In this document: positions 6,110-51,900 of the stretch, piece by piece
Position numbering within the stretch: the first letter of the stretch is position 1
How the letters are laid out: the number at the start of each line of letters is the position of its first letter
Assembly: GCA_003963305.1 (NCBI GenBank)
Contig: RXJR01000022.1
Coordinates: 124,001-188,000 of the forward strand
DNA length: 64,000 nt
Reading direction: 5' to 3'
Source of the DNA: Candidatus Melainabacteria bacterium
Lineage (GTDB): Bacteria; Cyanobacteriota; Vampirovibrionia; Obscuribacterales; Obscuribacteraceae
Translations under genes and position numbers: made by a program
Notes under the pieces: model-generated
Told to the model about the DNA's origin: nothing
The model's database searches: none
What the model saw: the letters and a program-made list of their open reading frames with translations, nothing else

Positions 6110-6928
6110 TTATAATTTACCAATCAATTCAAGAGACTTCATGTTCCTGCCAGCGCGGTACTCGATGTAGGTCTGGATAATTCGCCTGCCGGCTTCTGTA
6201 GCACGGGCAATCGTGGGCGAACTTCCGCCACTGAGATCGGTCGGCATTGTCTCGCCGGCGGCGAGAATCAGTCGTTTCCAAACGAGCGGAGTGATGTGCA
6301 CAGACTCACGCACATACGCTGAAGATGTCTGCCTGGATTTGCTGTAGCCCTCACTTACCCTGGCTTTCTGCTCGTCGGCGGTACACTTTTCACAAACTAT
6401 GCCGCCCGATTCAAAATGAAACATAGCGATTCGATATTCAGTCAGGGCATCTCGGCATACAACACAACAATCCAGCTCTGGTTGATAGCCCAACCATTGC
6501 AAGAGCTTCAACTCAAACATCAAGCAAAGCGAAGTAGGATCGAGATTCAAGTCTGATTGCGCTCTCAAACTGTCGCATAAGAAATCGAAATAAGAAGCAC
6601 TCTCATCAGCTACTCCTAACCCGAAATGGCTTGTCAATTCAGCGTAATAGAGACAGTAAGAAAGACGGTTCAGATCCTTTCTCACATTGGAAAATGTCTC
6701 GATGCTTTCCGCCTGGGTGATAATTTCGAAGGTTTTGCCGGTAGCAAGAAGCAGCTTATTAACGTTCAGCACATCAGCCCGCCCGGCTATCTTCGAGCCA
6801 GGCTTGCGCGCGCCTTTCGCCACGGCTTTGATAAGCCCTTTTTCCGCAGAAAAAATAGTCAACACTTTATCGGTCTCGCCCAGGGCGAAAGAACCGACAT
6901 TGACTGCGTGCACTGTATAAGTCGGCAT
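6110..6928 (-). CDS. recO: DNA repair protein RecO
   Basis: Mediator of RecA loading in the RecFOR recombinational repair pathway. The N-terminal OB-fold strand pattern (residues 1-80) contains GSFALGETDK and GLIKAVAKGARKPGSK. A helical domain follows, and a four-Cys zinc site is visible as CCVVC near 160-165 and CEKC about 30 residues later. Length (272) is slightly above the usual 240-260. The ATG at 6926-6928 starts MPTYTV. It lies in the second copy (in reading direction) of a 25-bp tandem duplication that covers the whole translation start; the Shine-Dalgarno match is weak. The gene immediately follows a histidine kinase gene. Confidence 0.92.
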   Translation of the reverse strand: MPTYTVHAVNVGSFALGETDKVLTIFSAEKGLIKAVAKGARKPGSKIAGRADVLNVNKLLLATGKTFEIITQAESIETFSNVRKDLNRLSYCLYYAELTSHFGLGVADESASYFDFLCDSLRAQSDLNLDPTSLCLMFELKLLQWLGYQPELDCCVVCRDALTEYRIAMFHFESGGIVCEKCTADEQKARVSEGYSKSRQTSSAYVRESVHITPLVWKRLILAAGETMPTDLSGGSSPTIARATEAGRRIIQTYIEYRAGRNMKSLELIGKL

Positions 6929-6972
6929 AGTATCGACCTGAAGCCTACGGCATAGTATCGAGCTGAAGCCTA
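6923..6972. repeat. tandem 25-bp duplication across the recO start
   Basis: Two head-to-tail 25-bp units, 6923-6947 and 6948-6972, identical except for one base (position 15 of the unit, C versus G). The unit holds the recO ATG plus its upstream leader. The upstream copy (in minus-strand reading) gives ATG-CCG-TAG, a two-codon open frame ending just before the real recO start region. The far end of the repeat is the stop codon of the histidine kinase gene. Confidence 0.9.
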
Positions 6973-8157
6973 AGTCTGCGCTTCCAGAGGTATCATAAAC
7001 CAGAAAGTCGAGCCGCTTCCAACCTTGCTTTCAACACCAATCTCACCGCTCATCAGATTGACCAGTTTGCGGCAAATTGATAGTCCCAGACCGGTGCCGC
7101 CATATCGACGAGTGATAGAACCGTCTGCCTGCACAAAGGGCTCGAATAATTTGGGCAGCGTTTCTTCACCTATGCCGATTCCCTGATCGACAATGGAAAA
7201 GCGCAGTGAATACCAGTTCTCCGTGCGTGCCTGTTCTGCAATCGAAAGTTTGATGTCACCAGATTCGGTGAACTTGACGGCATTATTGAGGATGTTCAAA
7301 AGGACCTGACGAATTTTTTTCTCGTCGCCCATAAATGAGTCGGGGAGACCTTCTTGAACGTCTACGATCAAATTGAGATTTTTCTTGCCGAGGGCACAGG
7401 AAATGGAAAGAGTAACAGATTCAATCAACTCGGACAGGCTGAATTTACTCTTCTGTAAGGCGACTTTGTTTGCATCGAGCTTTGAGAAATCAAGCAAGTC
7501 GTTGACAATTTCCATAAGAGTGCCGGCTGCGGTCAAAATATGATTCGCCATCTCTCTAGCATCAGAGGGCAGCTCCATCTCAGCCAGGAGCTCGGACATG
7601 CCCAGAATTCCGCTCATCGGCGTGCGAATTTCATGACTGATATTCTGGACAAATTGTGATTTGAGCGATGACGCTCTGATTGCCTCATCACGTGCAATCT
7701 CAAGCGCTTCTGTGCGCTCCTGCACGCTCGATTCTAAGAGAGCTTGCACACGCTCGCTCGCTTGTCGCTGGTCTTCTATGTCAGTGCTTGTGCCGAACCA
7801 ATTTTCAAGATCGCCCCTTTTGTTTTTGACCGGCAAGGCTCGTGAAAGGTGCCATCGATAGGAGTTATCCGCTCCTTTCAGTCGGTGCGTCACCTCGTAG
7901 ATATTGCCTGTCTCGACTGCCTTCAGCCACGCTTCCCGCGTTGATTGCGCATCATCGGGATGCACGCAAACCAACCAGTGCATATTGCGTGTCTGGTCGT
8001 AGCTCAAGCCGGTGTATTCGTACCACTGCTTGTTGGCATACTGTACATTGCCGCGCGCATCAGACGTCCAGACCATCTGTGGAATCGCTTCGGCTAAAAT
8101 TCGCAACTGATTATCAGGTGCAGAAAGCTGCAATGTCGTTTCGTTTACTTCGGGCAC
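6970..8157 (-). CDS. soluble PAS-domain sensor histidine kinase
   Basis: Cytoplasmic two-component sensor kinase without membrane segments. A PAS/PAC domain spans about residues 12-135 (AIPQMVWTSDARG start, WFGTSTDIED end). A short coiled linker leads to HisKA with phospho-acceptor His175 (NISHEIRTP). The HATPase domain shows the N box (NILNNAVKF), G1 (DQGIGIG), F box (LFEPFVQ) and G2 (GGTGLGLSI). No response regulator gene lies nearby, so the partner is unknown. The reading begins with GTG at 8157; no strong ribosome-binding site is seen. Its stop codon is part of the duplication ahead of recO, with which it is probably co-transcribed. Confidence 0.9.
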   Translation of the reverse strand: MPEVNETTLQLSAPDNQLRILAEAIPQMVWTSDARGNVQYANKQWYEYTGLSYDQTRNMHWLVCVHPDDAQSTREAWLKAVETGNIYEVTHRLKGADNSYRWHLSRALPVKNKRGDLENWFGTSTDIEDQRQASERVQALLESSVQERTEALEIARDEAIRASSLKSQFVQNISHEIRTPMSGILGMSELLAEMELPSDAREMANHILTAAGTLMEIVNDLLDFSKLDANKVALQKSKFSLSELIESVTLSISCALGKKNLNLIVDVQEGLPDSFMGDEKKIRQVLLNILNNAVKFTESGDIKLSIAEQARTENWYSLRFSIVDQGIGIGEETLPKLFEPFVQADGSITRRYGGTGLGLSICRKLVNLMSGEIGVESKVGSGSTFWFMIPLEAQT

Positions 8158-8196
8158 GCGGCTGTCGACCCCATTGTGACTGTAGTCAGCATAACA

Positions 8197-8226
8197 TCGA
8201 CACGCCCCGAATTTGGGGCGTGTCGA
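8197..8226 (-). terminator. 12-bp perfect hairpin downstream of gnd
   Basis: TCGACACGCCCC and GGGGCGTGTCGA flank a 6-base loop (GAATTT), 32 bases after the gnd stop and upstream of the histidine kinase. The stem is GC-rich and perfect. The T-tract on the minus strand is poor (TGTTATG), so it may attenuate rather than stop transcription, or stabilise the 3' end of the pentose-phosphate transcript. Confidence 0.5.
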
Positions 8227-8257
8227 GATAAGAATCCTGCAAATTGATGAGGAAGTC

Positions 8258-9712
8258 TTATGAAGGTTTGCCGGTTTTCTCTTTGATCAAGGAAGGCCAG
8301 TCGGTATGAACAAAGCCCGCCCCCGGCTTATCGATGCGTTCATAGGTATGAGCACCGAAGAAGTCGCGCTGAGCTTGTGTTAAGTTTTGCGGCAAATTCG
8401 CACAGCGGTAGCTGTCGAAGTAAGCCAGACTGGCACTGAGAGCCGGAACAGGAATGCCTGCATTGACCGCGGTCGTAATCGCGTAACGCCAGTTGGCCTG
8501 ATGCTCGACTATCCAGGAGCTGAATTCAGGATCGACAAGCAGGTTGTTCACGTCACCCTGTCGCTTGAACGCCTGTTTGATTGTCTGCAGAAGCTTCGCC
8601 CTGATAATGCAGCCGCCTTCCCAGATGCGAGCACATTCAGAAAGATCGACGTTCCACTTGTACTCGTTTGAGCCGGCCCGGATCAAAGCCATACCCTGAG
8701 CGTAACTGCACACTTTGCTGGCGTAGAGAGCATCGTGCAAAGCAGCCAGCACTTTCTTTGAATCAGCTGAACTAATTGACGCGTCACTCGGACCCGACAG
8801 TTTTTTGGAAGCTACCATGCGCTCATCTTTCAGGGCGGAAAGCAGGCGGCCGGTCAATGCTGCATCGATTGTCGGAATAGCGATGCCCAGATCGAGCGCA
8901 ATCTCGCCTGTCCACTTACCTGTACCTTTTTGACCAGCTTTATCAACAATCAGATCGACCAGGAACTTGCCTGTCTCGGGGTCTGTTACCGACAAAATTT
9001 TGGCAGTAATTTCAATCAAGAATGAGTCGAGAATGCCCTTGTTCCACTCCTCAAAGACATCGCTGATCTGATCTGCCTTGAGTCCGAGACCGCGTCTCAT
9101 CACATCGTAGATCTCGGCAATCAGCTGCATGTCACCATATTCGATACCATTATGGACCATCTTGACGAAGTGCCCGGCTCCGTTTGGTCCTAAATAAGTC
9201 ACACAGGGACCGTCTGAAGACTTAGCAGCAATCGCTTCCCAGATAGGCTTAATCTCGTTGTAGGCTTTTTCATCGCCGCCTGGCATCAACGAAGGTCCCC
9301 ACAGGGCGCCTTCTTCGCCGCCCGAGACGCCTGAGCCAATGAAACGAATTCCTTTTGCAGCCAGTTCCTTTTCTCGGCGAATCGTATCGGTAAAGTGAGA
9401 ATTGCCACCATCGATGATGATGTCATCCTTTTCCAGATATGGCAGCAACTTCTCGACCGTCTGATCGACCGGTGCGCCGGCTTTGACAAGCAAAATAATT
9501 TTGCGTGGTCGTTCGAGCGACTCTACAAAACTCTTATCGTCGTGATAGCCAAAGACCTTCTTGCCTTTGCCTCGATCGTTGACAAACTCGTCGACCTTCT
9601 CGACGGTGCGATTATAGATTGAGATCGGAAAACCATTGCGTTCGATGTTGAGAGCAAGGTTTTCACCCATGACTCCCAGTCCAATCAACCCGATCTTCGC
9701 CTTATCAGCCAT
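8258..9712 (-). CDS. gnd: 6-phosphogluconate dehydrogenase (decarboxylating)
   Basis: Converts 6-phosphogluconate plus NADP+ to ribulose 5-phosphate, CO2 and NADPH, the third oxidative step of the pentose-phosphate pathway. The N-terminal Rossmann motif is GLIGLGVMGENLAL. The substrate-binding SGVSGGEEGA and catalytic GHFVKMVHNGIEYGDMQ segments are intact, as is the C-terminal RDFFGAHTYER tail that reaches the partner subunit. Length (484) matches the long class. The ATG at 9712 has GGGAGG six bases upstream. It is the last gene of the zwf-opcA-pgl-gnd series, 16 bases after pgl. Confidence 0.97.
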   Translation of the reverse strand: MADKAKIGLIGLGVMGENLALNIERNGFPISIYNRTVEKVDEFVNDRGKGKKVFGYHDDKSFVESLERPRKIILLVKAGAPVDQTVEKLLPYLEKDDIIIDGGNSHFTDTIRREKELAAKGIRFIGSGVSGGEEGALWGPSLMPGGDEKAYNEIKPIWEAIAAKSSDGPCVTYLGPNGAGHFVKMVHNGIEYGDMQLIAEIYDVMRRGLGLKADQISDVFEEWNKGILDSFLIEITAKILSVTDPETGKFLVDLIVDKAGQKGTGKWTGEIALDLGIAIPTIDAALTGRLLSALKDERMVASKKLSGPSDASISSADSKKVLAALHDALYASKVCSYAQGMALIRAGSNEYKWNVDLSECARIWEGGCIIRAKLLQTIKQAFKRQGDVNNLLVDPEFSSWIVEHQANWRYAITTAVNAGIPVPALSASLAYFDSYRCANLPQNLTQAQRDFFGAHTYERIDKPGAGFVHTDWPSLIKEKTGKPS

Positions 9713-48981: not shown

Positions 48982-51900
48982 CTATTGAGCAGCAAATTTG
49001 ATTAGTAAAGCTTTCACACGGTCATCCTTTACTGCGTTGATCAAAGCAGTATACGACTTTGCAGTATCAGCGACGAAATTGTGCTGAACCTTCAAACTGC
49101 TCATGCTGGGATTGTTTGGATTCAGTGCGTAGACTTGTTGGATGGCTTTAGTAAGGGCTCGAACTTCTTCCAGACTGTGCTGTTTACCATCGGCTTTCAA
49201 AATCCTCTCAGCCGATTGCCAGGGTCCTTCGCCTCGTCTGACTGTTGCGGCTTTGATCATTGCTTCACTCGGCTTATATTCTTTAACCGCAGGTGGCACG
49301 ACTGGTTCAACTACTGGTGCATCGGCAGGCTTTCGAGCGGCCAGTGCTGCATCAGTATGTTGGGCGGCGGCAGCGATCCTGACTGCAGTTTCCGGTGCCA
49401 GACCAAGATCGCCAAGCGCTGGGCGCAGTCTACTTGCGCGAGCGGCTGTTGTCTCAGATATGACTGTGTACTCACCATCGATGATTGTTGGTCCACGTCT
49501 GGCTTCGGCACGACCCAACGCGGCGCCGACTTCGCGTCCAGCACCTTCTGCAGCTGGAACGACTTCACGTGTTCCGGCGGCGACCAACTCTCTACCGGTA
49601 GTCGAGGTACCTGCTACCACCAGCTCTCTACCGGCGGTAGCGGTGGCGGCTGGAACCAACTCTCTAGCAGCGGTAGCTGTGGCGGCAGGAATCAACTCTC
49701 TGCCGGTAGTGGCAGCAGCAGCGGGAACTATTTCTCTACCTGTGGTGGCGGCAGGAAGTAACTCGCGGCTGCCTCCGGTCAGTGCAGGTTGGACTTCGCG
49801 CAGTACTCCCCCGTATACAGCCTCTCTGCCGGTTCCAGCGACAACAACTTCTCTTCCAGTTGTACCAGTGGCTCGCAGTTGCGTGACAAATACCTCAATT
49901 TCTGTTCTTGTCGAAGGAGCCAATTCGGCCGCGCCTTTAACGCCTTTGCCGAAAAGCGCTGCAGGAGCTGCAATGAGAAGTCCATCTGCAGCGCCGAGCA
50001 GCGACTGCCTGACCATGTTGCGAGTGGAATCGTCAAAATTTCCACCTTCGACAGCCTTCATCAACTCCACTCTGTAAGCAGCACCGGCAGCAGTGGCGGC
50101 AGGCACCAGTGCAGCCAGAGCGGCAGTGCTCAAGCCAGCCGTCGCCGGAATGGAAGCCAGCATGGCAGCGGCCATAGTGGCATTGTAAATCAGCTCGGCC
50201 TTGGCATGCTCTGACTGGACCTGCTGAAATTTAGCTTCGCTGAAAAGCTGATCGAGAACTCTCTGCCTGTCTTCAGGTAGATTTTGTCTCATTCTGGAAT
50301 ATTCAGTCAAAAGAGACTGATTGGACTGAACGGTGCGATCGAGGGTGAGTGCAGAAGCATCAGCAGCGGTGCCTGACTTATCGGCTGACAGGCGTCTGTC
50401 GACAAAATCCTGAACACCGTCACCTGAAGTCGTAGAAAGCAACTTACCATATTCGATCGAGTGGGCTTTATCAACTTTGCCCAGGAAGTCATTATCGAGA
50501 CTGCTGTTATACTTCGCGCTGTACTCATTTTTGAGGCTCTCTCTCTGAGCTGGCGTGAGAGCCGCGAGTCTGTCGCGAAAATCTCTGAAATCGCCACCGT
50601 CACCAATGGCGAATGAACGCAGTTGATCTGCCAGAGTTGCCTTTCCATCCTGTTTAATGACACTGTCGAGAATTTGACGCTGATCGCCGCTAAGACTAAC
50701 GCGATCGCGCACCTGTTGTGGAGCTCTTGCAAAGTCTTCGTATAGTGAACTCATTGGCACGCCGAGGCTGTACTTTACACCAGCACCAATCTGTCCATCT
50801 TGCAGTGCCTGATTCCACGAATTCTGGTTGGCGAGATAAGGAGCAGACTCGCGCAGAGCATTGCTGACGCGAAATGCTGCAGCGAACGCGGGATCTTCCA
50901 TGCGCTTCGACATCTCCGCTGCACCGAGAGCACGTGCTGCTTCAACTTGCTTCAGCTGTTCTACGAGGTTTTTGTCTTGCAGGACGCGCTCCATATCGCG
51001 AACCCTGGTGGCAGGATCAGCGCCATCAAGATTGTCCTTAATAACCTGTTGTACTGGACTGAGTTGAGGAGGCTTTCCGGTTTCGGCAACCTGTTTCAAC
51101 GTAGTTTCTGCAAGATATCTTTGAGCAGACGACTCCGGCAGTTGCTCCGAAACGAATTTATCAACCTTTGCACGAAATCCATCGGTGTTGTTTCTGTATT
51201 TCTGTGCGTCTTCTGCCGACATGGTGGCGATGCGAGCGGTAACAGCGGTGTTATCGAAGGTGTCGCTGCGACCGAACCAGTGAGTAGCTCTTGTATCATT
51301 CATCACATCAGTAACTGATCTCTTGATACCGTTAGCAGCATCGTAAGATGGTGCATTGGCTTTGTCGGTCACCATGGCGAGTATGCGAGCCTTCTCTTCC
51401 GGAGTGGCGTATGCATCGAGCGAGCGAGCCAGGTCGGCTTGATATTTAGCCAGTTCTTGCGGATTTCCATGCAATCGATCGTAGTCTGCTTTGCTCATTC
51501 GCTCAGCTGCAGACATGATTGCATCCGTTGTATGACTACCCGAAGAATGTGTGGCAGCCAGTTCGGAAATCAGTGTTTTGCCGCCATGCAAGAGTTGATC
51601 CTCGAGAACGCTCTTCCTGAGTTGATCGACTGTGCCGTCGAACATCGTCAGCGTCTTATCCATTGCCGCTTCGACTTTTTGATGATAATCGACTGCAGCC
51701 TTAAGCTCGGGAGTGGTAGCCAATTTATCGGCAGTTGTACCTTCTCGTGCCGCGCGCTCGGCTAATTCCTTTCCGATTCTGTAATCGTTGCGCTCGCGCG
51801 TGGTGGCATTAGACAAAGCGAAGTCCGTATTGCCGGGGTTATCCAGAAGACCGAGCCAGACGTTGCTGTTGCCCTGGATAATGGTAGCCAGTGAAACTCG

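Follow-up and report, generated by a model that had tools for sequence, protein, structure and literature searches.

Does the two-codon reading frame that precedes recO in this melainabacterial genome regulate the translation of recO, or did it arise as a side effect of the duplication that contains it? In the window (the whole 64,000-nucleotide stretch of DNA analyzed here), two 25-bp copies lie head to tail at the recO start and are identical at 24 of 25 positions, in agreement with the preliminary description, which had reported a duplicated unit with a single mismatch. Read on the minus strand, the array runs from the kinase TAG through 16 nt to ATG-CCG-TAG, and through a further 16 nt to recO ATG-CCG-ACT. 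The mini-frame reported ahead of the real start is thus present at 6953-6945; its TAG is a copy of the kinase TAG, and its ATG lies 25 nt upstream of the recO ATG, so that the mini-frame is out of frame with recO. The kinase TAG had also been said to close the array; it does stand at the array edge, but in the direction of translation it opens the array. The sole mismatch between the copies (6937 versus 6962) falls within the Shine-Dalgarno (SD)-like AGGT, which in the inner copy is spaced 7 nt from the recO ATG; the chance of a mismatch landing in those 4 of 25 bases is 16%. The trinucleotide ACT immediately flanks the array at both ends.

Table 1. Coordinates of the duplicated recO start and its flanking genes in the window.
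Feature	Position	Strand	Details
recO	6110..6928	-	272 aa; Pfam RecO_N and RecO_C
Inner copy of the 25-bp unit	6923..6947	-	TAG, 16-nt leader with AGGT, recO ATG-CCG
SD-like AGGT of the inner copy	6936..6939	-	Read from the sequence and duplex energies
Mini-frame ATG-CCG-TAG	6945..6953	-	ATG 6953-6951, CCG 6950-6948, TAG 6947-6945
Outer copy of the 25-bp unit	6948..6972	-	Kinase TAG, 16-nt leader with AGCT, ATG-CCG
PAS/HisKA/HATPase sensor kinase gene upstream of recO	6970..8157	-	Pfam HATPase_c, HisKA and PAS; stop TAG at 6972-6970

The recO pair has a tandem score of 21, and none of 1,290 composition-shuffled start regions reached 12. It ranks second (score 93) among the 13 TRF rows of the window. 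The top-ranking array, at 49583-49706, has a 36-bp unit in 3.4 copies and a score of 129. A dispersed repeat or mobile element was rejected, since a pattern search of the 7.48-Mb genome allowing up to three mismatches found the 25-bp unit only at these two places, and so was a plasmid relative, as the plasmid collection held no near match. A consensus scan of 6700-7200 gave a single promoter-like site, which lies outside the array at 6828-6856 (plus strand); this argues against a promoter within the duplication. Elsewhere in the same genome there are noncoding arrays with a 24-25-nt unit of the GCAGTCGGGACGACTGC type with an inner inverted repeat (L069:13301-13498 and L068:8304-8351); these arrays at separate places are possibly a REP-like family.

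A search for RecO in 60 genomes gave matches in 55, and the best 30 loci, which were examined, all belong to the same family (36 genomes, 35 of them with a RecO match). The genus is represented by three genomes, namely, that of the window, SZAS-4 (JAFEAT010000020.1), and palsa_1080 (PLZS01000167.1), all of which keep the order gnd, kinase, recO, glyA (6110-9712 in the window), with kinase orthologues in the equivalent position in both congeners. The recO start MPTYTVHA is common to both congeners, and a miscalled start was discarded on this ground. Comparison with relatives, which the preliminary description had proposed, gave a divided answer. The duplication is missing from SZAS-4, where the kinase TAA is followed by 15 nt and a single recO ATG, and no tandem pair was found at recO in the 27 other-genus loci among the best 30 of the 55 RecO matches (top score, 7), so these loci give no sign of a conserved element. 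However, palsa_1080 has a different tandem duplication of its own at the equivalent site, with a 20-bp unit matching at 18 of 20 positions and a tandem score of 12; here the kinase TAA is followed by 21 nt, ATG-CCG-AAT-TAG, 8 nt, and the recO ATG. As a test of conservation of the minigene in the genus, this means a mini-frame that is absent from one congener and different in the other.

Of the 27 loci from other genera, 12 have gnd as the immediate upstream neighbor of recO, with a gap between the gnd stop and recO of 3-18 nt in nine of them and of 78-156 nt in the other three, which include the two closest other genera. Judging from this gene order, the kinase would thus be a later arrival between the old neighbors gnd and recO, or it may have been lost elsewhere. 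The palsa_1080 kinase (L034:2427-3947) matches the N-terminal part of the window kinase twice in succession and so apparently contains an additional PAS domain.

To place the array against its background, we sampled 861 kb of its own genome and 400 kb from each congener, comprising 1,290 ORF starts; the ORF calls are crude (most upstream start), and start positions are approximate. A tandem pair scoring at least 12 in the region from -100 to +40 was found in 8 of the 1,290 ORFs (6 of 647 in the own genome, and 2 of 293 and 0 of 350 in congeners G001 and G002, respectively), and only that of the window recO spans the start. With recO left out, a comparable start-proximal pair occurs in 7 of 1,289 ORFs, which puts the chance of one at recO in at least one of two congeners at about 1%. 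This low value hints at a hotspot or selection behind the parallel duplication in palsa_1080, a suggestive but not strong indication. Short tandem pairs (unit of 15-60, at least 90% identity) are common in the own genome: its 861-kb sample contains 55, of which 23 were classed as mostly noncoding or close to a start, and mini-frames of one to five codons within 45 nt upstream of a start accompany 67 of 551 ORFs in the sampled DNA of the same genome.

The explanation we favor, to which we assign a probability of roughly 0.7, is a young local tandem duplication, produced by slippage or template switching in the linker between the kinase gene and recO, with the mini-frame as a by-product. In a putative one-copy ancestor, replication slippage or template switching would have duplicated 25 bp within a linker that is short and probably loosely constrained. 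The copied unit begins with the kinase stop and ends two codons into recO, with the stop in frame with the copied ATG, and for this reason the outer copy reads ATG-CCG-TAG. The mini-frame would be a mechanical by-product, probably tolerated since both the leader and the true start of recO are intact. The duplication is most likely neutral or nearly so. Its likeliest consequence would be that translation of recO is coupled less tightly to that of the kinase, considering that the distance from the kinase stop to the recO ATG would have grown from 16 to 41 nt. The single start with a 15-nt gap in SZAS-4 and the base rates favor the by-product reading, while the parallel duplication in palsa_1080 with its own mini-frame, expected by chance in about 1% of cases, counts against it. 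Slippage as the mechanism has against it the exact junction of the duplication, where inspection for microhomology revealed nothing clear.

An unlikely but more serious competitor than the others is a functional minigene, in which ribosomes terminating at the kinase stop would reinitiate at the outer ATG, translate two codons, terminate again at the TAG, and reinitiate at recO, or else idle there and repress it. In the duplicated array, the spacing of 16 nt from stop to start occurs twice. Each of the two duplications in the genus creates a mini-frame that is out of frame and closed before recO, and the resulting gaps between the last stop and recO (16 nt in the window and 8 nt in palsa_1080) are in line with the short gaps at 9 of the 12 gnd-recO loci, but not with the long ones at the other 3. 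Two-codon frames that alter downstream translation have precedents in axe-txe, LEE1, and ycbK (PMC8708949). In Escherichia coli, a gap of 38 nt lowered reinitiation in two gene pairs by 80-90% and in a third abolished it, so a closer stop could matter, and the longer gap to the kinase stop could loosen coupling to the kinase; however, a gap of about 20 nt almost abolishes translational coupling according to the same source (PMC10666635), and coupling might already be poor at 16 nt. SZAS-4 manages without a mini-frame, and such frames are, as the above counts indicate, common.

A search for the 16S rRNA gene gave no match in the three genus genomes (9 of 14 control genomes matched), and the anti-SD sequence used is therefore not derived from these genomes. 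The absence of this gene is frequent in metagenome-derived assemblies. With this anti-SD, duplex energies in the window are -4.9 kcal/mol for the inner start and -2.4 kcal/mol for the outer one, a weak match that falls below about two-thirds of genes and speaks somewhat against the relay; with the same anti-SD, the two palsa_1080 starts score alike (-3.8 and -3.7), and SZAS-4 gives -5.3. Given this weak match and the frequency of mini-frames, the indirect evidence for a reduced or re-timed recO initiation, as considered in the preliminary description, is weak. In all 16 fold settings (nested windows, not independent), the two-copy array is predicted to leave the recO start more open than a single copy does, but the mean gain over the 16 settings, about 0.12, is approximately one standard deviation of the generic effect of a duplication (mean, -0.014; standard deviation, 0.111; n = 200). 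An effect of the duplication on folding was accordingly set aside, its direction being present but within generic scatter.

It is less likely still that, in this genus with its kinase between gnd and recO, selection has more than once favored a duplicated recO start because it uncouples RecO output from kinase translation. Selection would then have acted on the shift of the kinase stop to a distance of 41 nt, together with the insertion of the mini-frame as a relay or a brake. Taken alone, the window duplication is a short duplication of an ordinary kind; should the palsa_1080 parallel reflect selection, it would illustrate a simple path along which neighbors in an operon can acquire a minigene and altered coupling.

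The two duplications look young and independent. The preliminary description had suggested that the window event is recent, and this is supported: the copies are 96% alike (90% in palsa_1080), while the recO leaders of the three species do not align and their silent sites are only 33-56% identical across recO (fourfold sites, 44/105, 52/93, and 41/99) and the last ~350 kinase codons (50/110, 33/100, and 36/105). Young, separate duplications are the simplest account of these values, since such similar copies would postdate the species splits unless they have been homogenized. That the genus ancestor already carried one duplication, which SZAS-4 then lost and whose copies were homogenized by conversion or repeated slippage, is improbable, even though two of three species have a duplication at an equivalent place, both outer frames start with ATG-CCG, and the distance from the kinase stop to recO is exactly 41 nt in both. 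The units differ in sequence and length (25 versus 20), the two 41-nt linkers share 7 of 41 positions, fewer than the shuffle mean of 10.2, and it is the single-copy SZAS-4 whose RecO is more similar to that of the window (83% identity versus 78% for palsa_1080). We count the matching 41-nt distance as a coincidence. An artifact of this metagenome-derived contig is very improbable: no second assembly of the species was found, but the copies differ at one base, which makes an assembly error unlikely, the 25-bp unit is short relative to usual read and k-mer lengths, and a similar structure occurs in the separately assembled palsa_1080.

Replication slippage yields short tandem duplications that are head to tail, carry few differences, and occur sporadically among relatives. 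The window array resembles them in all three respects and differs in spanning a translation start, a placement unique to it among the 1,290 sampled ORFs. Our literature search found no paper joining a minigene with a tandem duplication, a start codon, and a Shine-Dalgarno sequence, although we do not claim its absence from print. The axe-txe operon likewise has a two-codon ATG frame shortly upstream of the start of the downstream gene, but its effect on translation was measured, whereas that of the recO mini-frame is putative (PMC8708949); the axe-txe mini-ORF is not known to be a duplicate of the gene's own start. Two-codon or dipeptide mini-ORFs just upstream of a start are also cited there for LEE1 (ler) of enterohemorrhagic E. 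coli and ycbK of Bacillus subtilis; in ycbK, the mini-ORFs and the gene share one SD, whereas the recO array has a leader copy for each ATG. With termination-reinitiation, the array shares a 16-nt stop-to-start gap at each step, but known coupling mostly involves overlaps or very short gaps (PMC10666635), and here the kinase stop lies 41 nt away.
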